DNA of 64,000 bases, from positions 6,696,001 through 6,760,000 of the forward strand of contig NC_026657.2 of NCBI RefSeq assembly GCF_000004075.3, read 5' to 3'. Of this stretch, positions 5,101-43,367 are shown in pieces. Within the stretch, counting starts at the first letter, position 1. The number at the start of each line of letters is the position of its first letter. Below the pieces are notes generated by a model. The model did not search any database. It saw only the letters and a program-made list of their open reading frames with translations, and had not been told where the DNA came from. The stretch is from Cucumis sativus. Its lineage: Eukaryota > Streptophyta > Magnoliopsida > Cucurbitales > Cucurbitaceae. Made by a program: the position numbers and the translations under genes.

Positions 5101-8100
5101 CCTTACCTTAGAAACATTTTTAAGGGAGAGTCGAAGGATTTGGGTGATGAATTGGTTTTTAGGAGGCAACTTGTGTTTTCAAGATGTGGTGTTTAACAAA
5201 TTGATCATTGGAATGTAATTGAATAAAAACCCTCTTGGAAATTATGTATTAACCTGGTCCATGTGTAACTTAAGGATCAATCTCTTCCTTACTTTATAAA
5301 TTTCTAGTTCTGAGCAACTAGAAGAGGAAGAACCATTATTTTGCACATCGTTTCATGAGGTCCTTACCTCCTTTGTGGGAGATGTTCGCCCTTGGAGTCC
5401 TTGTCCGTGCACAGGTTGTTCCTACAAATCTTTCTTCTTGTGTGTTGTCCATCTCCCTGTCGAGTGGTTCTATTTTCTCCTCTTTGTGGTAGAAAATAGA
5501 GTTTCAATAACCTTTCCCAGAGAGTTTCAATTTTTGTGTGGCAGGTTATGCACAAAAGAGTTACACCTTGGATTAGATTTTGACAGGGAGGCCTATTTTG
5601 GATGGGCCACCTTCTAATAGTCTCTACAAAAGGGTGGTGGAGGACAGTCAATCATATTCTCTGTTGATGTGATTTTGCTGGTGCTGTTTGGCGTTTATTC
5701 TTGGAGGCATTTAACTTTTGCTTTTTCAGCTCGTAGGGAGACAATGGAGGAACTCTTTCTTCATTCACCTTTATGTGAGAAATGATCATTTTTGTGAGAG
5801 GATGAGGCTTGTGCTATCATGTAGTGTCTTTAGAGCAAGAAATAATAGTCTTTAGAGGCAAAAGGGATCTTTTATCGATGTTCGTTCTCTTGTCAGATTT
5901 TATGTTTCTCTTTGACCTTCGGTGATGACATTTTTAATAGTCTTTAGAGGCAGAAGAGATCTCTTATCAATGTTTGATCCCTTGTCAGATTTTATGTTTC
6001 TCTTTGACCTTTGGAGACAAGACATTTTTATACCGACCTTTAAGACCATAGATCCTACATCACACTTAAGGGCGACTGCCATATTTGCTCATAATAGTCC
6101 TATTTCTCAAAGCATTAGGTACAAAAAGAATTCCAGGACCATTTTGCTCGAAAAGCCACATTAGGGAGTATCAAATTCTCGATACCTAACCCTCCCAAGG
6201 GTTATGGTTTTGAAACCACATCTCACCTAATAGATGGAGCCCTTCTCCCCATCGACCCTACCAACAAAAAATACCTTGTCATTTTCTCAATGGCCTTGCT
6301 CGCCAAAACAACATCCTAAACAAAAACAAGAAATAACTAGGGATGCTACCAAAATCGATTGGACAAGAGTTAATCTACTCTCGTTGGAAAAGAAGGATCT
6401 TCCTAAAGAAATGAACACTTTTGCACCTTTTACACCTCATAATTCCAAAAAGACCTATACTTTGAGTTACCACCCAAGGAGAACCTAAAACTGGCATCCT
6501 TAAAAGGAAAAGAGGTAAGGGATGCAAGTTCTCGACTGGATAAGATTTAATCAACCCCTTTGGAAAAGAAGGCTCTTCATCGAGAACCCAAACACTTTTG
6601 CAGCTTTTCCACAACTTGGTTTTAGAAAAAGACAGATACTTTTGAATTACCGGTATCACCCAAGGAGGGCCCCAGATAAGAAGGCAGTCAGTTTACCTTA
6701 TAGTCAACCATGGAGACTCACACACTTTTTCCAAGGCACCAGTTTGACCCTATGGTGGAGCTTTTACACGTTAATCTCGAGGATCAAAATTATTGAAGGT
6801 TTTAAGAACTCCTTTAATGTAAAGAAAAAGTACTTGGGCAACATTTTTTTTTGTGATTATTCCTACACAGTATCTTACTTAGTTGGAAACCCTTTCTCTA
6901 GGGGTTTCTTCTATGGGTTGGTTTTTTTGTATGCTCTTGTAATTTTTTTTTCTCTCTCGATGAAAGAAGTTGTTTCTATTTAAAAATAACTCTTTGAGCC
7001 ACCAAACAAGGAGTAGAGTTAATAACTCCACTCCCCCACCCCCACAAACCTTACCGGCAAGGTTAAGTTACAAGCACTTAACCTAGAGTAAAGATAAGTT
7101 AATGATGTGGTAGGATTAGAGTCAATTAGGGTATCTTGGTTAAATCCTTGATTGATTGGAATTAGGATTAGCTTTCTTGATTGATTGGAATTAGGATTAG
7201 CTTTCTTGATTGATTAGGATTGTAATTAGTTTCCTTAGTTTATTAGGACTAGGATTAGTTTATTTGATTAATTAGGATTAGGATTAGGATTAGGATTAGG
7301 ATTAGGATTAGTTTACCTTACAATTCTCTATAAACAGAGGAATTGTCTTCTGGTATTCATAACTTTTGATTCATAATGAAGACTTTGATTTTATTATTTG
7401 AGAATCACTTTAGTATTAGAGAATCGTTTGAGACAATGTTGACTGCTGCTAGTGGAAGATTGAGAAACTCTTGGTGATGTCGATTGCAAGAGGGAGCTTC
7501 GTGAGTTGGGCTCTCTGTTGAACAACACGCATCTAATTAGGGGGAACCCATTAAATTCAAGAAAAGAAAGAAGAAAGAGGAGACTTTTTCAAGATTTTGC
7601 ATGAATGAACTAATATTAATCAAGGAAGACAACCAAGAAAAAATACAGTAGTTGGTATAGGCAAGAAAGTCAAATTTACTCCAACAAAACAGTGCTGGAA
7701 TTCTGGCTCAAGTAATTCAGAAGAAGAATTCCCCACAATAATTTCTTCCATTTTTCTTTTAACCATGCCTGATTTTCTTAAATAATCTATCATTAACCTG
7801 ATTTATTATTTGATTCTCGTGATTTTAATGATGGAGAAAAGCTTGTTAAAAACACAGAGTAGAATTGATGAACTGAAAACTAAGATAAAATCAGCTTTTG
7901 CCAAGTCAGAGAAAGCATTGGCATTGTTGAAAACATGTTTGGATGTTTGCGATAGTTGTGGGAAGGTTAGTTGAAGAAGCTTCTTCTAAGCACATGCTTG
8001 TAGAAGAGATTCAGCCCTTTGTTGAATATTTGAAGGCAATAAAATTATCCCTCACAAATAAGGAGAAAATGGTGGAAAAAATGAAGCAAAAACTAGAGAC

Positions 8101-24101: not shown

Positions 24102-25701
24102 TCAACAAACATCCAACTTTTCAATTATTTCAAAATGCATCTGCATGTCCGCAGGTCTATCAGCAAAATAAAATTTCTCATTAACCTTCAAGTTTCCTCC
24201 ACTTCTCAGAGCTTCAGATTCAAGAAAACTCCTCATTTTTTCCTTCTCATCTCGTATCCAAACTCTTCTGCGATCACACCATTGTCTTGGAGTACCATGA
24301 AGAACAAAACGGATTCCTCTTGACTCCTGAATAAGACTGCTGGAGATTCTTTTGATTACCTCAGGGTCTGTAAGGTATGCACCATGGGAGTTCAACCCAA
24401 CATCCACATAATGAATCTCTGTTATGCTTTTCAAAAAGCTTTGTCCTGTAGTTGGTACGAACTGAATCTCATCAAGTTTAGAACATTCAACACCCGATTC
24501 TTGCTTAGAAAGAGGTAGATTTTCATCAGCAGCCATCAAGTCCTTGGAGCCAAGTTCAGTAACTAGCTGGTTAACCACAGTACCACCCTTGCTAAATCCA
24601 AGAATGATTGTTTCGGGGGTGCAGCAGCTCAGTGTAGATATGGCGGTTTCCTGTGATCTTGGTTTTCCCCTAGAAACTATCTTCTTTACCTGCCAAATCC
24701 ACAACTAAGTGCATGAGTTCACCTCAAAATCGCAAGCAATCAGTCAACATAAGCATAGCTTAATTAGTTTAGACATACAGACTTTCAACCAAAGCTAATA
24801 GATTTGAATCTCTCAACCATAGTACAACAGGTTTTGGCATCCATAGCTTAGCTAATCTAGACATACACACCCTCGATCAAAGGTGGGAGATTCAAATATC
24901 TAAATCATAGCTCAGCAGGTGTAGGCATACATAGCTTAGTTAGTTTAGCCTTACACACACCCTCGACCAAGTGGTTAAATATTTGAATCTTTCAACCATG
25001 TAGCTCAACAGGTTTAGGCATACATCACCGCTAAGAGGTCATGGAGTCGAATCTTTTCTGGTTTAGCCATACGCCATTAATCAAGAAGTGAGGATTCGAA
25101 TCTTCGTTGAGCGTAACGGAACCAGTTTCGGCATACCATTCCACTAATAAACCAAATAGTTATATATTCAAATAAACCACACCCTATGTTGTTGACTCAA
25201 AAGACACATTTAGACAATACCTCATTGTAGCAACTTCCCAAAAGTGAAACGGTTGACAGTGAAGCAGGGAACCCATTTGGAGTATATGATTTTGGTTCAC
25301 CCCACCGATTGAGAGAAGGTATAAAATCCTGATATATAGCAAAAGCTCCATTGAAATCAGAAGCCTCGACAACCCATGCATTGGTGGAATCTCCAAATTT
25401 CGAAACTAAAATTTCAGCTATGTTCTGTAGATTAGACAACCTCTCAATCACTGGATTTCCCGTCCCTTCAACCCGATCCCCATTAAAGAAGATGGCGTTT
25501 CCACGAGGAACCTAACAAAACAGTATACAGTATTTCCCTCAATCTGAAAGGACGGTGTGTAGTTCAGGGGAATTAGAATATTTCAAAACTTACCGTCAAT
25601 GTTTTGGAGGTTGGGGAAAGGCAGAGTGACACCGCAACTCTATAAAACTTGCGGCTGTTTGAATTCAATGGAACCTTCAAAATTCCATTCCAACGATCCA
25701 T
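24102..25701 (-). CDS. C2orf69 / UPF0565-family protein, 3 exons
   Basis: Exons in order of transcription are 25701-25594, 25511-25221 and 24689-24102; frames close to give 328 residues. The start MDRWNGIL is the only ATG before the conserved region. A GFSKGG motif in exon 3 (TIILGFSKGGTVVNQLVTEL) is the nucleophile elbow of an alpha/beta-hydrolase fold. Downstream are conserved-looking YVDVGLNSHGAYLTDPEVI and VLHGTPRQWCDRRRVWIRDE segments, which I associate with the UPF0565/C2orf69 family. The human member is mitochondrial and linked to energy metabolism; the plant role is not known to me. No obvious transmembrane segment is present. The gene is convergent with its left neighbour and divergent from the ribosomal protein gene on the right, about 620 bp away. 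Confidence 0.88.
24745..25130 (+). repeat. Tandem array of degenerate tRNA-like units in the second intron of the C2orf69-like gene
   Basis: About four units of 80-110 bp repeat the pattern CATAGCTTAGTTAGTTTAG, then ACACACCCTCGACCAAG, then a GATTCGAATCTT-like B box. This is the order of a tRNA A-box, anticodon-arm and T-arm sequence. The units are diverged and none folds as a full tRNA by eye. A SINE-like or locally amplified tRNA-derived repeat is the best reading. It runs opposite to the host gene. Confidence 0.6.
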
Positions 25702-29813: not shown

Positions 29814-31619
29814 CTACTGCTTCCAAAATGAGAAACCACGATGTCTTGAAACCTTTCTAATCTCAGGTTGTCGGTGAAAATCATTTTTGTTGGGGAACAA
29901 GCTGGAGTTCTTGCCTTCCCCAGAACAATCTGATGGGTTCTCTTGAAACACTGACTTACCAGCAAGCCAAGTTTGTAGTACCTCATCTATCTTTGGTTCA
30001 GGAAGTAAGTCTTTTTCTTTCATTTCCAAATAGTATTTATGTGCATCTTCTAATTTTCCATTCAAGAAGAGACCATGTATTAAGACAATATAAGAGCTTC
30101 GATCAGGACTAATTCCATTTTCACTCATTTCATGCCATATTCTGGAAACGTTATCAAGCTGTCTCCATCGGCAGAACTTTCTGATCAACATTATGTAGGT
30201 GTCAGTAGTTGGATTGCACCCCATTGTTCTCATCTTCTTCAATAGCTCAAATATTTCTTCCTCTGTTCTCAGGAACCTTAAGAAGGCATGATAAGTTTGA
30301 ATGGTTGGGCAGAGGCCTCGCTGCAAAAGCTCCTCAAAAACCGCTCTAGCTTCATCAAATCTCCTGGCCTTGCATAAAGGTTTGATAACTGAGTTATAAG
30401 TAACAACATTTGCAATAATACCCTTCTCTTCCATTGTTTTTATGAGATCAGCAGCTTCTTTCAGACACCTACCTTTCGCAAGAGAGTGAATGACTGCATT
30501 GTACACTTTCCTATCAGGGTCAATTTTCATTCGCTTCATATCTTCAAAAAGCCTGAGCACCTTATGAAGGTTGCGAACTTTTGAGTAACAAGAAATGCAA
30601 CTTGCATATGAGACAGCATCATGACTGATACCTCTCCGTGTCATCTCCTTCCAAACTCTCTCGGTGTCACGAAGACTCCCAATTACACACCATCCATTGA
30701 GGATAATATTGAAACTCTTTGTGTTAAATGGGAACACGTCTTTGTTGCAAAACAGCAAATATTCGGCATCTTTCACATTTTTGTATCGGCAGAGGGCAGA
30801 GAGAAGGCTTTGAAATTCCTCAAGTCCAATGTTAAATCCGAATCTTTTATGAGCATAGAAGGTATTTATAGCTTTTGCAACATCATGAACAGCACAGTAT
30901 CTCCTAATCATGATTAGAAGGGTTTGAGGTGTCACTAGCGAAGAGCCTGGCGTCCCTCCTCTCATCTCATCAATCAAGGCCCATGCTGTGTCAAACTTTC
31001 TCATTTTCCCAAGAATTGAAATCATTGAATGATATTCACGTACAGAGTGGGCATAACCAGGCTGCTTACCAGCCCAAACAAAAAAAGTGAAAGCTGCTTC
31101 CCAATCATTACGGATCCGAGAAAGTACCGCTACTACCAACTCTCCTGAGACCTTAATAAAGCAATGCTCAAGCTTATTTCTCACTTGTATTCGATTTGCA
31201 TCCCTGAACCCACGAAATATATCCATAATGGCATCAACATCTTTTATCACACCCTTGTCATTGATGTCCATGTCCTCCTCTTCACATTCTTCTAGATTGT
31301 CATGATCATCGTCGCTCTCATGATCACTTTCGGCTGCATGGTGACAAGATTGTTCCGAAGTTGCAGGTAAAATATCGTGGTTTGAGCTTGGAGAAACATA
31401 AGAATGAGAACAAAAGCCAAGTGAGAAGAGATCCCCAACATTGGAGTTCGATACAGTGGCAGTGTCAACAGTATGAATGCGTGTAGGCCACAAACTAAAA
31501 CCAGAGGCCATGGTAGCACTGGTAAGAGCTCTGTGATTGACATGGTGGGCGTATTTAACAGAAGACCAACTGAAATACGTACGACCCAGAAGCGAAAATG
31601 CACACAACTTTGATCTCAT
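29814..31619 (-). CDS. P-class pentatricopeptide repeat protein, probably mitochondrial
   Basis: A single coding exon encodes 601 residues. The first in-frame ATG is 31619-31617 (MRSKLCAFSLLGRTYF). The longer open frame begins at a TTG and is not used. The N-terminus is rich in Arg, Ser and aromatic residues and low in acidic ones, as in a mitochondrial presequence. An acidic stretch (about 95-125) precedes roughly ten 35-residue PPR motifs, for example KVYNAVIHSLAKGRCLKEAA, VVTYNSVIKPLCKARRFDEA and SYIVLIHGLFLNGKLEDAHK. No E or DYW domain follows, so it is P-class. Such proteins bind organelle RNA and act in its processing, stability or translation; it resembles Arabidopsis At5g15010 in overall build. 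A possible 5' UTR intron has its acceptor at 31652 and its donor at 32168, inside the inverted repeat described separately. Confidence 0.92.
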   Translation of the reverse strand: MRSKLCAFSLLGRTYFSWSSVKYAHHVNHRALTSATMASGFSLWPTRIHTVDTATVSNSNVGDLFSLGFCSHSYVSPSSNHDILPATSEQSCHHAAESDHESDDDHDNLEECEEEDMDINDKGVIKDVDAIMDIFRGFRDANRIQVRNKLEHCFIKVSGELVVAVLSRIRNDWEAAFTFFVWAGKQPGYAHSVREYHSMISILGKMRKFDTAWALIDEMRGGTPGSSLVTPQTLLIMIRRYCAVHDVAKAINTFYAHKRFGFNIGLEEFQSLLSALCRYKNVKDAEYLLFCNKDVFPFNTKSFNIILNGWCVIGSLRDTERVWKEMTRRGISHDAVSYASCISCYSKVRNLHKVLRLFEDMKRMKIDPDRKVYNAVIHSLAKGRCLKEAADLIKTMEEKGIIANVVTYNSVIKPLCKARRFDEARAVFEELLQRGLCPTIQTYHAFLRFLRTEEEIFELLKKMRTMGCNPTTDTYIMLIRKFCRWRQLDNVSRIWHEMSENGISPDRSSYIVLIHGLFLNGKLEDAHKYYLEMKEKDLLPEPKIDEVLQTWLAGKSVFQENPSDCSGEGKNSSLFPNKNDFHRQPEIRKVSRHRGFSFWKQ

Positions 31620-31650
31620 TCTTCCATCCAAAGTAGTTAGCTAGAAACAA

Positions 31651-32340
31651 TCTGCAAAAATCAGGTCATACTTTCCACATCTTCTGGAAAAAGTTATGAG
31701 CTCCAAGTGTTTGTTGAATGTTCTGAGAGAAAAAGAGACAGAGCTGAGAGAATTCGAGTTGTACGGGCTGGCAACCACAGTCGGAAGATTAAAACGATCA
31801 GAGGAAAAACACACACCTACATGGGAGTAATACCAAATACAAAAACAAATAATGATCAGAATCAAATAGCAAAAGACAAAGCCAGAAAGGAATGTGGGCA
31901 AAAACCCAAAACACTATTGAAAAACACACACCTAAATAGAGAAATATCAGACAGAAACACAAATAAGTAGGATAAATCTCGCCAATGTGCGCATTGCTAG
32001 GCAGCTAAAGAAACCAAAAACCATTAAAAAAAAAACACACACATCACTATAAGCAATTCGATCAATAGCACATCTAGACACCTTAAGTGCCTGAAAAATG
32101 AAGAACCCAGATAATGAAATAGGGAAAAAAGGCGAAAGAAGTCACAGTGGGAGCCTTGAAAGCCATACCAGTGAAGTGAGGGATTCGGAAGGTACGAGAA
32201 TTGGAATCTTAGTTGTGAGCGAATCCTTTGTGTTTCTGTATCTGGGTTGATTTACTTTGGTTCGCTTGGGAACCTCAGAGAGAAGGGGGAGAATCAGAGG
32301 CGCGTTAGATATCTTAGAATGAGTTTTTTCGATTCGGGCC
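31651..32340 (-). promoter_or_regulatory. Putative spliced leader and promoter of the PPR gene, built from an inverted copy of the LIF2 5' region
   Basis: On the minus strand a leader like that of the LIF2 gene ends CACTTCACTG|GTATGG (exon end 32169). A good acceptor, TGATTTTTGCAG, ends at 31652, 32 bases before the PPR start codon. Splicing them would remove 517 bp. Site II-like GGCCC and TGGGCT motifs, common in plant housekeeping promoters, lie upstream within the same arm. The splice is predicted, not observed. Confidence 0.5.
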
Positions 32341-32562
32341 TTTGTGTGCAGAAGACGGAGAGGGCTTGAAGACGGATGGGCTAAATTGGAAGCCGAATCT
32401 TCTATCTACTTAAACGTCGTCGTCTTCTTCCCCTGCGAATATTTCATCTCTTCTCCGGTGCCGGGTTTGTGCGGCGAAATGTCTAAAAAGCCCTTTTTAT
32501 ACCGAAAATAGCTATTCGATTATTTGTTTCTAAAGCTACCCTCCAATTTCCAAATGCATGGT
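31951..32562 (-). repeat. Left arm of a large inverted repeat (copy of the LIF2 promoter and leader)
   Basis: The reverse complement of 31951-32562 matches 33833-34461 almost base for base. Matching landmarks from the outer to the inner end are ACACAAATAAGTAGGATAAA, the splice donor CCATACCAGTGAAGTGAGGG, TCGATTCGGGCCTTTGTGTG, and AAAGCCCTTTTTATACCGAA. Beyond 31951 and 32562 the match stops abruptly. The right arm has about 20 extra bases near 34040-34062. Confidence 0.93.
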
Positions 32563-33832
32563 CTAGTGTGGGCTGCGTTAAACATTGGTTCCTTTTACCC
32601 TTGCGACCTTCAGAGAACATGGAGAATCAGAGCTGCGTTAAACATCACATAGTGCGTTCTTTCCATTCGGGCCTTTGTTTGCAGAAGAAGACGAGAAAAT
32701 TTGCAAAATTAGCCCCAGCAGTAACTTTGTACAAAAAACCACTTTGAGAAAGTAAAATATGTTCCTTTTACCCTTTGATGTTTGAGGATGGATGACCTAC
32801 AAGTTGGAGGGAAAACGTGGAATGACCCGTTAGTTTTTCTTTTCTTCTAAATGTCAATAACTCTTTGTTGACGTTAAATTCGATTATAATTATCAAAATC
32901 ACTTGTACACATACGAAAAAAGTAGTTTAGTATTCCATGTTTGGTGTCGCTCTCCTTTATCTCGTTGGTGTCATTCTGTCTCACTCATTTTCAGTTGTTA
33001 TTGCACGATATTGAAGATCAAGACAAAGAAAAAAACTGTGTCAGATAAGATGTCAGATAAGAAGAAGATGGGTGAGATATGAGAAAAAAAAATGTGTATG
33101 CCATATGAGGAAGAGAGAGATCGTGGGAGATGAGAAAAAACATGTCAAACAACAAAGAAGAAGTTCATGGGAGATAAAATAAAATTGTACGACTTAGGAG
33201 GAATATGTAAAAAAACACTAAATAAATAAGTAGTTAGATGAATGATATAGTTTCACACAATAATATTACGAAGGAGGCATTTGAAATTTTGGACCTTTCA
33301 AATAGGTCTTTTAGACCATCAAAATTTGCATGTTTGGTATTTTTGTAACAATGTCTTAGCTTTGATCAATTATAAATTTAATATTTTTATAAGGAAAAAA
33401 AAGAAGAATTGAACCATGAAATGTGATTCTCTAATACTTATATCAACTAAGTCAAGTTTTCACGGGTAATTATGTTTTGGCTTAGTAGAATAAAGAAAAA
33501 AATATAATAATAATAATAAAAGATTTGAAAATTGGAATCTTAATAGGAGTGGGATTAAGATAAATTTCAACTGAAAATTCCTATAAATACAATCTTTAGT
33601 ACTTCTATTCTTATTTATTCTAATTCTCCTCTTACAGACTTAGATATCTAAGTTGGGTTAGCATCACTTGAAGGTTAGGTGCATTATCTCCCCTTCACCA
33701 AAATTAATTTTTAATTCAATTTAAAAACCACAAATTAATTATTAATAATTGGGACAAGTTCAAGAGAAATTAAAAGGAGAAGGGAAAGCATAAGTTTTCT
33801 TAAAAAACCCTAGAAAAAATATATATTTATTT
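32563..33832. other. Spacer between the inverted-repeat arms
   Basis: About 1.27 kb of AT-rich DNA. The first part (32605-32697) is a degenerate direct copy of 32262-32352 in the left arm, sharing CAGAGA, GAGAATCAGAG, TGCGTTA and ATTCGGGCCTTTGT. The stretch 33020-33200 has short purine-rich repeats (ATGAGAAAAAA). An LTR-like stretch at about 33540-33730 has CCTATAAATACAATC followed by GCATCACTTGAAGGTTAGG, which resembles cucurbit LTR ends I recall, with low confidence. I see no gene. Confidence 0.55.
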
Positions 33833-34461
33833 TCATGCATTTGGAAATGGGAGGGTAGCTTTAGAAACAAATAATCGAATAGCTATTTTTGGTATAAAAA
33901 GGGCTTTTTAGGCATTTCGCAGAACAAACCCGGCAACGGAGAAGAGATAAAATATTCGCGGGAGAAGAAGACGACGACGTTTAAGTAGATAGAAGATTCG
34001 GCTTCCAATTTAGCCCATCCGCCTTCAAGCCCTCGTCGTTTCAGCCCAGAGCCGCTTCCCCTTCTGCACACAAAGGCCCGAATCGAAAAAACTCACTCTA
34101 AGATATCTAACGCACCTCTGATTCTCCCCCTTCTCTCTGAGGTTCCCAAGCGAACCAAAGGAAATCAACCCAGATACAGAAACGCAAAGGATTCGCTCAC
34201 AACTAAGATTCCAATTCTCGTACCTTCCGAATCCCTCACTTCACTGGTATGTCTTTCAAGGCTCCCACTGTGACTTCTTTCGCCTTTTTTTTCCCTATTT
34301 CATTATCTGGGTTCTTCATTTTTCAGTCCCTTAAGGTGTCTAGATGTGCTATTGATCGAATTGCTTATAGTGATGTGTTTTTTTTTTTAATGGTTTTTGG
34401 TTTCTTTAGCTGCCTCCCAATGCGCATGTTGGCGAGATTTATCCTGCTTATTTGTGTTTAG
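33833..34461 (+). repeat. Right arm of the inverted repeat: LIF2-side promoter, leader exon and intron start
   Basis: This arm contains the probable promoter and 5' UTR exon of the LIF2-like gene, and about 215 bp of intron 1 after the donor TCACTG|GTATGT (exon end 34246). TAGCCCATCC and AAAGGCCCG motifs lie upstream of the leader. It mirrors 31951-32562. Confidence 0.93.
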
Positions 34462-35087
34462 GTCTCGTACCACTCCCATTTAGGTTCGTGTTCTTCAATA
34501 GGATGTTAGATTTTTGCAATATCCATTCGTTTCTCGCGTTGTCTGTTACTATTCGATTCTGGGTCTCGTTTATTGGAAAACCGAGGTGTTTCCTTTTCGT
34601 TGTATTCTTTTTGTTCGATTTGCATATTAGGGGGCTGCGTTTTGTTTATTTTAGTATTTTGGGATTGGATGTCTTTGAAACGAACCACACTAGTTGATGA
34701 AACATGAGTCAGGCTTATGTGCCGATGGATTTTATTTTGTAATTCTGTGGGCAGACATCGTATTTTCTCTCCTCAGGTCCTTCGTTTTAGTTTTTAGAAT
34801 TTCTTCATCTCAGAGAAAGTGTTGTGGAATTTACTTCAAAAATTCTTAATTCCGCTGATTCTTATCCATATAATCTAAATTGAACTCCTAATGATGTTGC
34901 TTCTAGGTGTCTTCAATGAACTGAAGTGGGCATATTTTCATTCTGATATTTATTTTATCCATTTTCTTTTTACTAGTTACTGATACATAACCATATTTAT
35001 AATGTAAATGCATTCACTTTATTACAGGTGATTTTGTGCTTATCAAATTTGTTTGTTGAATGATACTATCTGTGGCGTGAAGCAGTC
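34247..35087 (+). other. Probable 5' UTR intron of the LIF2-like gene
   Basis: The donor GTATGTC at 34247 follows a leader ending CCTCACTTCACTG. Two acceptors are possible: ATTACAG ending at 35027, or AAGCAG ending at 35085, directly before TCATGG. The former has the better pyrimidine tract. The region has no coding features and is AT-rich. Confidence 0.6.
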
Positions 35088-38000
35088 ATGGCAGATGGTT
35101 CAGAAGTCGAGGAGCGGGTGGATCTTGAAGAGGACAATTACATGGAAGAGATGGATGATGATGTAGAGGAACATGTAGATGAGGATGGAGTAGATAGGAG
35201 AGCTGGTGAACTGCCCGAAGAGGATGTTGAAGAAGTAAGCGAAGAGCCTCAAGTTGGGACCGACACGGAAGATAAATTTTCAGATGATAGAAATAACTTA
35301 TCCGTAGAATCTATAGAAAATAGAGAAAAGTCATCTTCTTTATTAGATGAAGATGATCTTGAGAAGCATGCTCAGCTTCTTGCCCTTCCTCCTCATGGAT
35401 CTGAAGTTTTTATTGGTGGACTTTCACGTGATGTCTTAGAAGAAGATTTGAGAGATATGTGTGAATCCCTAGGAGAAATATTTGAGGTCTGCACTTTTTA
35501 TTCTCTCTCGTGCTCTTTCTTTCTTCCTTTCTTTGAACCTTTGATTTTAGAGGTACGTTCTGTAACACAATTGTTTTGCAGATAAGGATAATAAAAGACA
35601 AAGATTCGGGTGAAAGCAAAGGTTATGCTTTTATAGCGTTTAAAACCAAAGAGGCAGCACAAAAGGCTATAGAGGATTTGCATGGTAAAGAAGTCAAGGT
35701 AGTTGTGGGATTCCTCAAGACTTTGATGTCCTTGTTACTTTATTATGTTTCAAAAGCATCAAAGCTGCTCTTTTCACATCTCCATCCATCATCGATAAAT
35801 TTAAAATTGATTTTAGTTCATCCTTCACAATACAGGGTAAAACGATACGGTGTTCTCTGTCGGATTCTAAACACAGACTATTTATTGGTAATGTCCCAAA
35901 AAGTTGGACAGATGATGAGTTTAGGAGACTTATAGAAGGGGTTGGCCCTGGAGTTGAAAACATTGAGCTTATTAAGGTGAAGTTGCAAATTTATACATCT
36001 ACCTTTTCAGAAATCAATGGTTATTGAGGCTTTATGTGCTTTATTCTGTATAACCTACTGCAGGATCCTCAAAACCCAAACCGAAATCGTGGATTTGCAT
36101 TTGTTCTGTATTATAACAATGCCTGTGCTGATTATTCAAGGCAGAAAATGTCGAGTGCAAATTTTAAGCTGGATGGAAATTCCCCAACTGTTAGTTGGGC
36201 TGATCCAAAAAGTATGCCCGATAACTCTGCTGCTGCTCAGGTAATCAAGTTATCATGACTGGAGAAAATTATATGGGATCTGCATGGCAATTTCAAGTAC
36301 CTTGAGATTTTATATCAACTGGAATTTTGTTAAAAACTGTGGTACTAAGGTTAAAAGAGTAAACCAAAACTGTTAATGGGCAGAGAAAAGTCCTTCGTGC
36401 TGTTTTGTTTTTTCAATTTCAATTTCAATTACTAAGCAAGGCAACCAAATTTGAAATATTCGAGCCATAAAAATATATCGATTGACCAATTGAACTTTGA
36501 GTAAGGAAATGTGGTTATAAACTTATAAAGATGGTTATCTTGGTGATTTTGAATCAAATTGCCTAAATTCCTCTTTGACCCAAGCTCAGTACAAAACCTT
36601 GAACAGAATAGTCTGCTGCACCTCACTAATCCTCTAGTTGGCTACTGACAAACTTTAGTGAATTATAACTATCATTTTTAACAAGCCATTAGTCTACTCT
36701 TATGCCGTAGTTAAATGAAGTAAAGAAAGGAAAACCTAAACATATAGCTTTTGGTTCTCCTTTGTTCAACCTTCTCACCTATAGATGCTCCTGCTCTCCC
36801 ACAATAACTTATAAGGAATACTGAAATAAAACTGAAGATGAAATAGTAATAATTATATGTTCTTGAACATTCTTCCATTTCTCTCCATGAAAGCTGAGAT
36901 TTTTTAAAATAATAATAACTAACTACAAGGTAACATGATTAAGTGCATGAATGACAAAAGTTAATTTTTTAGGTTGTCTTCTGGAAAATCTCTCTCTAGG
37001 AAAGAACATTTAGTGCACCACCTTGGTAAACATGTTTCCAATTGTTCCATCTTTGTAACCTTTAAATTTTTTTAAGAAACGGAGACAATCCTTTTTATTA
37101 ATTATAAATGAGACTAATTACCGAAGAACAAGAGTAAGAGCAAAAAAAGAAAACAATTCATCCAACAAACGAAACAAAGATGAACTCTGGCAATAGAAAT
37201 ATGAAAACGACCTACAAACGATCACAAAGAAGAAACAACGAAAGAACCAAAGTAACAAAGAACTGAAACATTAGTAAAGAGTTTAAACACTTAGTCGAAA
37301 AGCGCCCACTTCAGACTGAAATTTTGTACTCCACATGCTTCAGTTTGAAAGAAGGGAACCCCAAGAAGAGGCAATTGGCTGCTTCAAAACTATCCAACCC
37401 AAATAGTTCTTTTAATATTTAATGGGATTTCGCAAGACTGGGAATGAGAGCGAGTAAAGCACTAAGATTGGTCTCTAGAAGCTCAAAATGACCCTACCTC
37501 TCAAACTCAATTGACTTCTTATAATGAGCCATCTTCTCACTACTGACACCAAAAGGAGAGTCAAAAGAAGACTCACCTTTTTTTTTTGAGGAAATGCTTG
37601 GGATGCAGAGTGAACCTCTCAAAAACTTCACCTTAGAGTTGGGCAAAGAAAAAGCAGAATGCTTAAAGTTAAAACGGTGGAGGAAGAAGAGATCGTGAAG
37701 CTGACTCCGGTAGAAGGGGTTGGAACAAGTGCTTGGGTGCAGCTAACATCCAATAAGTCAGGGTTCAAATCAGAAATCAACATGGCTTTGGTAACATTCT
37801 TTTTGGGGAAGCCCTTTGCTCTCTTTTTTCTTACAAAATGATTAAGGAATGGTTTGAAGAGGTGAGGGAAAACTCGATCTTTTTCATTATGACTGTCTAT
37901 TGAGGTGTACTTGAAAGAATTGAATTATAATATGAAATAAAATTTAGTCTCCATTACAGGAAGATATTTAAAAGCACATGATAGTTTGGTACTACATTGT

Positions 38001-39341
38001 AATTGGCGAAGTCTTTTAAACGCTTGTTTTGTATTGGCATTGACTTCCTGGTTTTATTTATTTGTGCTAGCAAGTTATTATTGATCTACAACTTTATGGA
38101 TTGCAGGTGAAGGCTCTTTATGTGAAAAACATTCCCGAGAATACTACTACTGAGCAACTGAAAGAATTGTTTCAGCAGCATGGGGAAGTGACAAAAGTGA
38201 ATATGCCACCTGGCAAAGCTGGGAGTAGTAAACGGGATTTTGCATTCATCCATTATGCTGAGAGGTCAAGTGCATTGAAGGCTGTCAAAGAGACAGAGAA
38301 ATATGAAATTGAAGGTTTAGTTTTTATATTCTTGGAGATTTACATTTTATATCTCAAATGAACAATAACATTCCCTGTTCTTTAGGAAGAAAACGTTAAA
38401 ACATATTTTGGCTTTTATTTCTATTGGTTGATGCACCCGTGAGCCAATCTTTTTCTGACAGCTTGTTGAATTATTTTATCTCTATTTACTGAATTGGACG
38501 ATCTGTTCAACTTATGTGTGGAATTTCATTTACAGCATATCCTCAACATTTAAAAGTAAAGTAGGATGAATCACCAGCAGTCAAGTTGTCTAAACAGATC
38601 TTTTGTATTTGACAATGTTTTATAAAGAGAAATGCTTTGTTTTAACTTTTTTCTTGCAATTGCAACCCAAAGGATAATCTTCAGAGATTTTAATCTGCAG
38701 GCCAACTTTTGGAGGTTGTCCTTGCAAAGCCTCAAAGTGATAAAAAATCAGATGGGGCCTATTCCCATATATCTGGAAGTTATCCCAACCATCTTCTTCA
38801 TGGTGGATACGGTGGTTATGGTGGAAATCCATATGGTTCCCTAGGTGGGTATGGTGTTACTGCTGGCTTCCATCAGGTAAATTTTTTTTCTTTCTTATCT
38901 AAAAAAGTTATATTGCGTCATCTCAGTTAGGTGCATCTCCCAAAGTGAAAAGAAAAGAAATATAAATTTCTTTTTTCCTCGACATTAATCTCATGGATTT
39001 TTTTTTCCATGTAACAGCCAATGATTTATGGTAGGGGACCAATGCCGGCGGGAATGCAGATGGTACCAATGGTTTTACCAGATGGTCGAATTGGTTATGT
39101 TCTGTAAGATATCACCCTTAATGGTTCGAAGTCCATTTTATCTATATAATCTATATATATATAATTGTAAATTGTATATATTGTCACTTATGAATGCAGT
39201 CAGCAACCTGGAGTACCAATGCCCCCCTCTCGATCTCGAAGAAGTGAGAGGAGCAATGGATCAGGTGGAACAATGGGTCGTTCAGGAGGTAGTAGCAGTA
39301 GTGATGATGTCAACCGTGGCAGAAGGTATCGGCCCTATTAA
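35088..39341 (+). CDS. LIF2: Three-RRM hnRNP Q-like protein, LIF2-related, 8 coding exons
   Basis: Coding exons are 35088-35486, 35582-35698, 35836-35976, 36064-36240, 38107-38314, 38701-38876, 39018-39103 and 39200-39341. Frames close to 481 residues. Residues 1-100 are strongly acidic (EEDNYMEEMDDDVEE). RRM1 spans about 107-182 (VFIGGLSRDV; KGYAFIAF), RRM2 about 187-262 (RLFIGNVPKSW; RGFAFVLYYNN) and RRM3 about 281-352 (ALYVKNIPENTTTEQL; KRDFAFIHYAERS). A Gly/Tyr/Ser-rich tail ends GRRYRPY. Order and tail match Arabidopsis LHP1-INTERACTING FACTOR 2, a nuclear RNA-binding partner of the Polycomb-associated protein LHP1 that affects flowering and defence gene expression. Intron 4 of the coding region (36241-38106) contains a repetitive insert. 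It is head-to-head with the PPR gene and shares the inverted repeat. Confidence 0.93.
37060..37850 (-). mobile_element. Unclassified retroelement-like insert in a LIF2 intron
   Basis: The stretch begins GAAACGGAGACAATCCTTTT followed by an A-rich, open-frame-poor region. On the minus strand its end looks like the 3' tail of a LINE-type insert. No protein domain can be named. It explains most of the 1.87-kb intron. Confidence 0.3.
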
Positions 39342-41692: not shown

Positions 41693-43279
41693 TTATTCAA
41701 CAGGAACCTTCACCGGAAAGTTATCGATTGAGTCGATCCATGGGTTAACTCGCTCGCACTCGCTTGCCGGAATTTCTCTCAGCGCCTTCCAAACCGCGCT
41801 GTTACACTTGAATCCCGCTCCGAAAGCCACCTGCCAGATACGGTGGCCTTTTGTGACGCGATTCTTTGCTTCTGTGTATGCCAATTCGTACCACAAGGAA
41901 CTACTCGATGTGTTCCCAAATCGGTACAGCGTCATTCTCGAGGGTTCCATGTGCCATTCACTCAGTTGGAGGTTCTTCTGCAGAGCGTCCAGCACCGCTC
42001 TTCCGCCGGCATGGATACAGAAATGCTCGAATGCGAGCTTAAAATCTGGTACGTACGGTTTTACCTTTGCTTTCAGTACTTTCCTTTTCAACATTGAGAC
42101 GAAGAAGGCGAATTGCTCTGAAAATGGTAGTACCAAAGGGCCTAGAGTCGTGATGTTCGTCTTTAATGTTTCACTTGCAACCGCCATTAATTCGCGCGCG
42201 AGTGAAACTCCAATTTTCCCTTCCTCGTCCTCTTTCTGATAAACGCAATTATAGCTTTCGTCGTCAGCTCCTTTGTGAGTCCGAATCGTGTGAATCAACT
42301 CGTATTTTGAGCGGGATCGATCCGTGTGCTTGTTCGATAACAGCACGGCGGCTCCTCCCATCCGAAACAGACAATTGCTAATCAGCATCGAACGATCGTT
42401 ACCAAAGTACCAATTTAGGGTTATACTTTCGGTGCTCACAACTACGGCGTACGTGTTAGGGTTAGCGTTGAGAAGGTCCTTAGCAAGCGTAATCGAGATA
42501 GGGCTTGCGCTACATCCCATTCCACTGAGATTGTAGGCTTTAACGTCGGTTCGAAGCTTGTAGTGGTTAACGATCATTGCGGACAGCGATGGTATGGGGT
42601 TGAATAAGCTGCAATTGACGATTAGAATTCCTATTTCACTCGGGTCCAAGCCGGTTTTCTCGAAGAGAGCATCGAGGGCGCCGAACATTACAGTCTCCGC
42701 TTCGAAGCGTGCTTCGTCAAGACACAAATTCGGCGGCCGAGAAGTAATTCCTCTCGACAAGTAGGTTTCGTCGCCAAGACCGGCTCGTTTTGCTACTTTC
42801 GACATAAACTTAAGGGCATCTTCTTGAAAGCCACCGTTCGCTGCACTCATTTCCAGGAAACTGTCCACCGTCATCTTCCTCGCGTCCGCTGGTTTGTGAC
42901 AGGCAAACTCCACCAGATAAACCGGCGTGGATCGCTTGGAACAGTAGAAGCCAAGGAGAAATATCGACAGCAAACCGGCTATGGCCGTAGTTGCATCAAT
43001 CTCATATTGTAATCTTGTGGTCGGCAGTAACTCAGATACTCGGAAGAGTTTGAAACCGGAAAGTTGAATAGCGAGGGAAATAAACAGAGGCAAAATGACG
43101 AGGAACATAAGAGTAGTGGCAGAGTTGGATGAGTACCCATATCCCAATTTTACATATTTAAGCTTGACTGACTGTAGAAAGTCCGGCAAGCGTTGCCGGA
43201 TTCTGATAAGGATGGAAGAGGAGTCCTTAAGCTCCATTTCTGCCGTTAATCTCTCTGTATCCATCTCTATGCTCTCCAT
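41693..43279 (-). CDS. KCS1: 3-ketoacyl-CoA synthase, KCS1-like
   Basis: An intronless frame encodes 528 residues from the first ATG (43279). A second ATG at 43264 ([10 protein letters not shown]) aligns with the Arabidopsis KCS1 start and is an equally good choice. Codons upstream lack an ATG. Two hydrophobic segments (about 56-75 and 97-112) anchor it in the ER. The FAE1/CUT1-type condensing domain follows, with Cys256 ([10 protein letters not shown]), His423 (HAGGRAV) and Asn456 (RFGNTSSSS) as the catalytic triad. It would condense malonyl-CoA with long acyl-CoAs, the first and rate-limiting step of very-long-chain fatty acid elongation for waxes, cuticle and sphingolipids. Just after the catalytic Cys it has SASPISIT where close relatives have SAGLISID, an unusual change. 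A TATA box lies about 90 bases upstream. Confidence 0.93.
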
Positions 43280-43367
43280 ATACAACGTCTTGCTAATTTC
43301 TCTGTGGTTGTCTTTGTGGAGCACACTCTCAAATCTCACCCCTGTTGAAGTAAACTATGTACCATCT

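Follow-up and report, generated by a model that had tools for sequence, protein, structure and literature searches.

In bidirectional promoter pairs, two genes have start sites less than ~1 kb apart and share one promoter. Pack-MULEs carry gene fragments. At the F locus of cucumber, CsACS1G is described as having a distal promoter recombined from CsBCAT; the locus is a tandem duplication of 30.2 kb, and lines differ in it (PMC7072070). In tomato gene targeting, the published account of ANT1 plant 11.1 describes precise homologous repair on one side, and on the other side 966 bp of additional copied vector together with 29 bp of unknown origin (PMC4635538). A plant review describes repair events that start from one side and mix homologous steps with end joining, as well as patchwork inserts produced by template switching (PMC4617055). 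Filler DNA has also been reported at rice transposon excisions (PMC5023962).

The window analysed here is a stretch of 64 kb of cucumber DNA (C3:6696001-6760000), in which a PPR gene on the minus strand and a LIF2-like gene on the plus strand form a back-to-back pair (Table 1). As in a bidirectional promoter pair, the two genes have matching regulatory sequence. Unlike such a pair, however, they have two separate mirror copies instead of a single short shared promoter, and the corresponding leader positions, 32281 and 34134, are 1.85 kb apart, the start sites themselves being predicted. As with a Pack-MULE, a copied gene start is set before another gene, but the genome search did not find a multicopy element. 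The locus resembles the published account of tomato ANT1 plant 11.1 in that one joint is homologous and seamless, whereas hundreds of copied bases and short filler mark the other side (~626 bp and a 43-nt joint in cucumber). In contrast to the tomato case, the cucumber template would be the locus next door, in inverted orientation, and what was copied is a promoter together with its leader. Like the F locus as described in its report, a structural change supplies foreign upstream DNA to a gene, although the copy here is inverted, measures 0.6 kb and includes a leader and a donor site, whereas the F locus is a tandem duplication. The titles and abstract openings of the papers retrieved on inverted promoter duplications contained nothing on this locus.

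Table 1. Features of the PPR-LIF2 locus, with positions counted from the first base of the window.
Feature	Position	Strand	Basis
PPR coding frame, 601 aa + stop	29814..31619	-	Pfam PPR_2, E 4.8e-53
Putative second leader piece of PPR, 32 nt	31620..31651	-	sequence; follows acceptor TTTTTGCAG ending 31652
Upstream flank of PPR itself; 14-nt pyrimidine patch 31738-31725, possible native core promoter	31653..31803	-	motif
Weak further old piece	31804..31852	-	matches 34448-34496 (75.5%) and 31919-31966 (81.6%); 1/1000 shuffles
Old tail, low-identity continuation of the arm	31857..31954	-	24/98 differ; Fisher p 1.4e-10 vs core
Young copy A, facing PPR: promoter and leader exon with its splice donor, followed by ~213 nt of the LIF2 leader intron	31955..32560	-	alignment, 22/603 differ
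Filler-like joint, 43 nt	32561..32603	-	14-mer 32572-32585 = 32632-32645; 15-mer 32588-32602 = 32761-32775
Old copy B, stranded copy of LIF2 34061-34163 (promoter/leader start)	32589..32687	-	18/99 differ; 0/1000 shuffles
Spacer	32688..33833	.	matches elsewhere just short or low-identity
Probable donor arm, with the LIF2 promoter, the leader exon (up to 34246) and the initial 213 nt of the leader intron	33834..34459	+	alignment
Predicted LIF2 leader intron	34247..35027	+	donor GTATGT, acceptor TTATTACAG
LIF2 intron stretch matched by old tail	34460..34561	+	alignment
LIF2-like hnRNP-Q gene, partial extent: start ATG and the first exons that encode RRMs	35088..38879	+	RRM_1, E 9.9e-52

The product of the LIF2-like gene is an hnRNP-Q-type protein with three RRMs, which matches the hnRNP Q structure 6kor (E 1.5e-32). 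Arabidopsis LIF2 is described as an hnRNP-Q and a partner of LHP1 (PMC3031606, PMC4051675). The cucumber gene is a candidate ortholog of it, as one paralog exists on C6, 60% alike across a single 67-aa exon. This paralog was considered as an outgroup for the leader and rejected: its coding exons match, but the leader gave matches of merely 14-23 nt (E ≥ 0.12). The start codon of the PPR gene occupies 31619-31617, with its A at 31619. A three-codon upstream ORF, ATGGAAGAATGA, lies at 31627-31616 on the minus strand, and its stop codon shares bases with the start codon of PPR (ATGA). Genome-wide, the next best PPR relative was only 36% identical, and hence there is no recent PPR duplicate for comparison. 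Elsewhere in the window, a long frame on the minus strand (41693-43339) carries a FAE1_CUT1_RppA domain (E 6.7e-133) and probably encodes a 3-ketoacyl-CoA synthase. There are also two tandem arrays, one with three copies of an 88-nt unit at 73% matches (24754-25025) and one with a 29-nt unit that continues into ATTAGG x 6.8 (7147-7311). Scans of the 64-kb window for tRNAs and Rfam families gave no matches.

A preliminary description of this DNA had reported an inverted duplication of the LIF2 promoter and leader, with near-perfect arms around a spacer of about 1.27 kb and a splice donor in each arm. Alignment bears out this arrangement: the arms end within a few bases of where they had been placed, 1,273 nt separate them, and both retain the donor GT (CTG/GTATGTC in LIF2, CTG/GTATGGC on the PPR side, where 32169 is the last leader exon base). 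The arms are indeed reverse complements, and 'near-perfect' translates into 96.4% identity without gaps, with six indel events in addition. Substitutions in this near-identical core numbered 10/206 in the upstream part, 4/186 on the leader side and 8/211 in the intron. Where the promoter begins and ends within the arms is a presumption of ours. The indels are partly clustered, as the LIF2 arm has ~21 extra nt within 34035-34060. This extra stretch carries a second AGCCCA motif at 34043, which we take to be site II-like and which copy A lacks. The spacer contains a telobox, AAACCCTA, at 33805. Upstream of the LIF2 arm, a TATA-like sequence, CCTATAAATAC, was seen by eye in the spacer (33580-33590, plus strand), possibly an extra promoter.

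The block of promoter, leader and donor in copy A does point at the PPR gene, as had been proposed, and its anatomy fits the capture of a promoter and leader. The acceptor that had been singled out for the PPR gene, TGATTTTTGCAG, ends at 31652 and leaves 32 nt before the ATG. PPR transcripts would then have their leader spliced from 32169 to 31651, a junction that leaves only one tiny upstream ORF. A single upstream ATG remained with just two of the 14 PPR-side acceptors tested, 31652 and 31641, and the predicted leader of LIF2 likewise retains one. The leader stretch itself has no ATG in copy A or in LIF2, against four in copy B. By a crude score trained on 11 predicted acceptors, 31652 ranked second among 19 AG sites and 31932 first. 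This score decides little, because the predicted acceptor of LIF2 also ranked only third of 27 by a similar score. The PPR donor was no worse than that of LIF2 on a crude donor score (5.6 versus 4.9). Divergence of the leader was not significantly lower than that of the rest of the core (4/186 versus 18/417, p 0.24), and hence gives no sign of selection on leader use. We consider it plausible, with a slight leaning in favour, that the PPR gene uses the captured promoter and leader.

Alternatively, the arm might be a passive scar of repair, with the PPR gene transcribed from its own promoter at the pyrimidine patch and the arm either silent or producing a short upstream transcript. This reading is a serious contender, though we think it is probably not correct. 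It agrees with the character of the PPR flank (31653-31803), which has no detectable similarity to the LIF2 intron and contains the pyrimidine patch, and with a leader that has no excess conservation. Copy B, with its divergence and four ATGs, was evidently not maintained, although the arrival of the young copy may be what displaced it. Yet, a transcript starting at about 31735 would retain three upstream ATGs near the PPR start, and an entire promoter-leader block with a donor GT aims at the PPR gene from a distance of about 0.55 kb. An inverted repeat may give hairpin RNA and cause silencing. Here, neither sense transcript would contain both arms, because the two promoters point outward, and the two leaders would not pair, because they have the same sense. 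By this reasoning, a hairpin RNA could arise from the inverted repeat by read-through from outside.

The idea of a single duplication is disfavoured. Copying very probably took place in two or more rounds, and an older layer of it reaches past the arms first recognized. Homology continues outward from the core along the LIF2 leader intron, and none of 1000 shuffles reached the score of this tail (31857-31954 against 34460-34561). A second old remnant, copy B, lies behind the PPR-side arm, and its last bases overlap the filler-like joint. The divergence of B is like that of the tail (p 0.30) and unlike that of the core (p 9e-7). Because tail and B share a high divergence while that of the core is low, an old inverted copy of parts of LIF2 34061-34561 was probably present on the PPR side before the core was rewritten. 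Two further comparisons gave no sign of homology: that of the PPR flank (31620-31803) with the LIF2 intron, where 482 of 1000 shuffles scored as well, and that of the DNA upstream of B with the LIF2 promoter (703 of 1000). The weak further piece is part of a short direct repeat (31804-31852 with 31919-31966, 81.6%), one unit beside the old tail and the other inside it, which suggests a further small old duplication.

A single inverted duplication might still account for the core if selection on the promoter and leader of both genes kept it alike while the intron tail drifted. Indeed, promoter and leader both sit in the near-identical core, and the tail is intron. We nevertheless regard this explanation as improbable. 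Divergence steps up abruptly at one point inside the intron, from 8/211 in its first 213 nt to 24/98 in the next stretch; B is itself a diverged copy of promoter and leader DNA; and the joint looks like filler.

The joint lies between the far end of the core and copy B, on the PPR side, and looks like templated patchwork filler left by end joining, since it contains a 15-mer and a 14-mer that recur nearby (Table 1). At least one match of 14 nt or more occurred in 1 of 2000 dinucleotide shuffles and in 8 of 1260 control windows of the same sequence. The remaining bases of the joint include a 9-mer match to the LIF2 intron (34685-34693), possibly by chance. When 43 nt from the LIF2 edge were compared in the same way with the adjoining 300 nt, they had no such repeat, just a 10-nt A/T-rich run. 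At its other end (31955/34459), the core passes seamlessly into the older homologous intron tail, without a gap.

The preliminary description left undecided which arm is the original. The LIF2 arm now emerges as the probable source, because it is the PPR side that carries both the remnant of the older copy and the filler-like joint. Most likely, LIF2 was the donor and the PPR side the recipient. Conversion in the reverse direction, with the LIF2 promoter overwritten from the PPR arm, is quite improbable for the same reason. Admittedly, identity by itself is symmetric, and the ~21-nt difference between copy A and LIF2 is not polarised, because the alignment of B begins just beyond it. Yet, at the differences between A and LIF2 that fall inside B, B agreed by eye with the LIF2 base at all three, a tiny count that includes one site in the possibly filler-derived end.

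A whole-genome search with the leader as probe, in which repeat counts are lower bounds, found it at three places, all at the PPR-LIF2 locus (E 4e-110 to 8e-15, far beyond chance). Hence, a dispersed repeat is excluded at the sensitivity of this search. A query with the PPR flank and tail returned itself alone and missed even the counterpart of the tail in the LIF2 intron; the search is therefore insensitive to old short copies, and some elsewhere may have been missed. The exact leader pattern had no match in viral contigs, and a LIF2 exon had a single, irrelevant 35% match among prokaryote genomes, in a Bacteroidetes bin. Although inverted arms flank a spacer here as in a transposable element, and Pack-MULE-like elements do carry gene fragments, it is very improbable that the arms are terminal repeats of such a carrier, because the leader was found at three places only, all within the locus, the spacer has only four matches outside it (38-214 nt, 68-92% identity), and the arms contain a gene's own start region, continuous into LIF2.

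Our overall interpretation, which we hold with only modest confidence, is that the start region of LIF2 was copied in inverted orientation at least twice before the divergent PPR gene, that break repair rewrote the older copy, and that the PPR gene is transcribed from the resulting arm. Initially, an inverted copy would have taken in the promoter of LIF2, its leader exon with the splice donor, and some of its leader intron; B and the tail would be what is left of that copy. Later, a break within this old PPR-side copy would have been repaired by one-sided copying. By means of the old tail, the broken end on the intron side would have annealed to the LIF2 intron and primed the copying of ~626 bp of LIF2, back across the leader and promoter. 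End joining, with brief stretches of templated filler, would then have linked the new strand to the second broken end, right next to B. The outcome would be an almost fresh LIF2 promoter and leader facing the PPR gene. Break repair as the route of copying is thus our reading of the joints and of the two levels of divergence.

The split from Cucumis hystrix has been placed at 4.5 million years in one account (PMC7917098) and at 4.81 million years in another, which dates the split between Benincaseae and Cucurbiteae to 37.4 million years (PMC9456015). Rough dating of the two copies predicts a wide distribution of the old one across Benincaseae and a restriction of the young one to cucumber and possibly C. 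hystrix. A more speculative possibility, which we consider rather unlikely, is that the PPR gene periodically renews its neighbour-derived promoter and leader by ectopic copying, a form of concerted evolution over tens of millions of years. If true, renewal through residual homology would let two unrelated genes keep matching promoters.

At the PPR-LIF2 locus, a promoter with its leader was copied locally, repeatedly and in inverted orientation, and the case is well preserved, down to a repair joint that can still be read. The probable donor and recipient survive at one site along with this joint and with copies of two ages, and our reading of them yields a clear prediction for other cucurbits. 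If the PPR gene uses the arm, it would have gained a promoter and a spliced leader from the adjacent gene, without a transposon.
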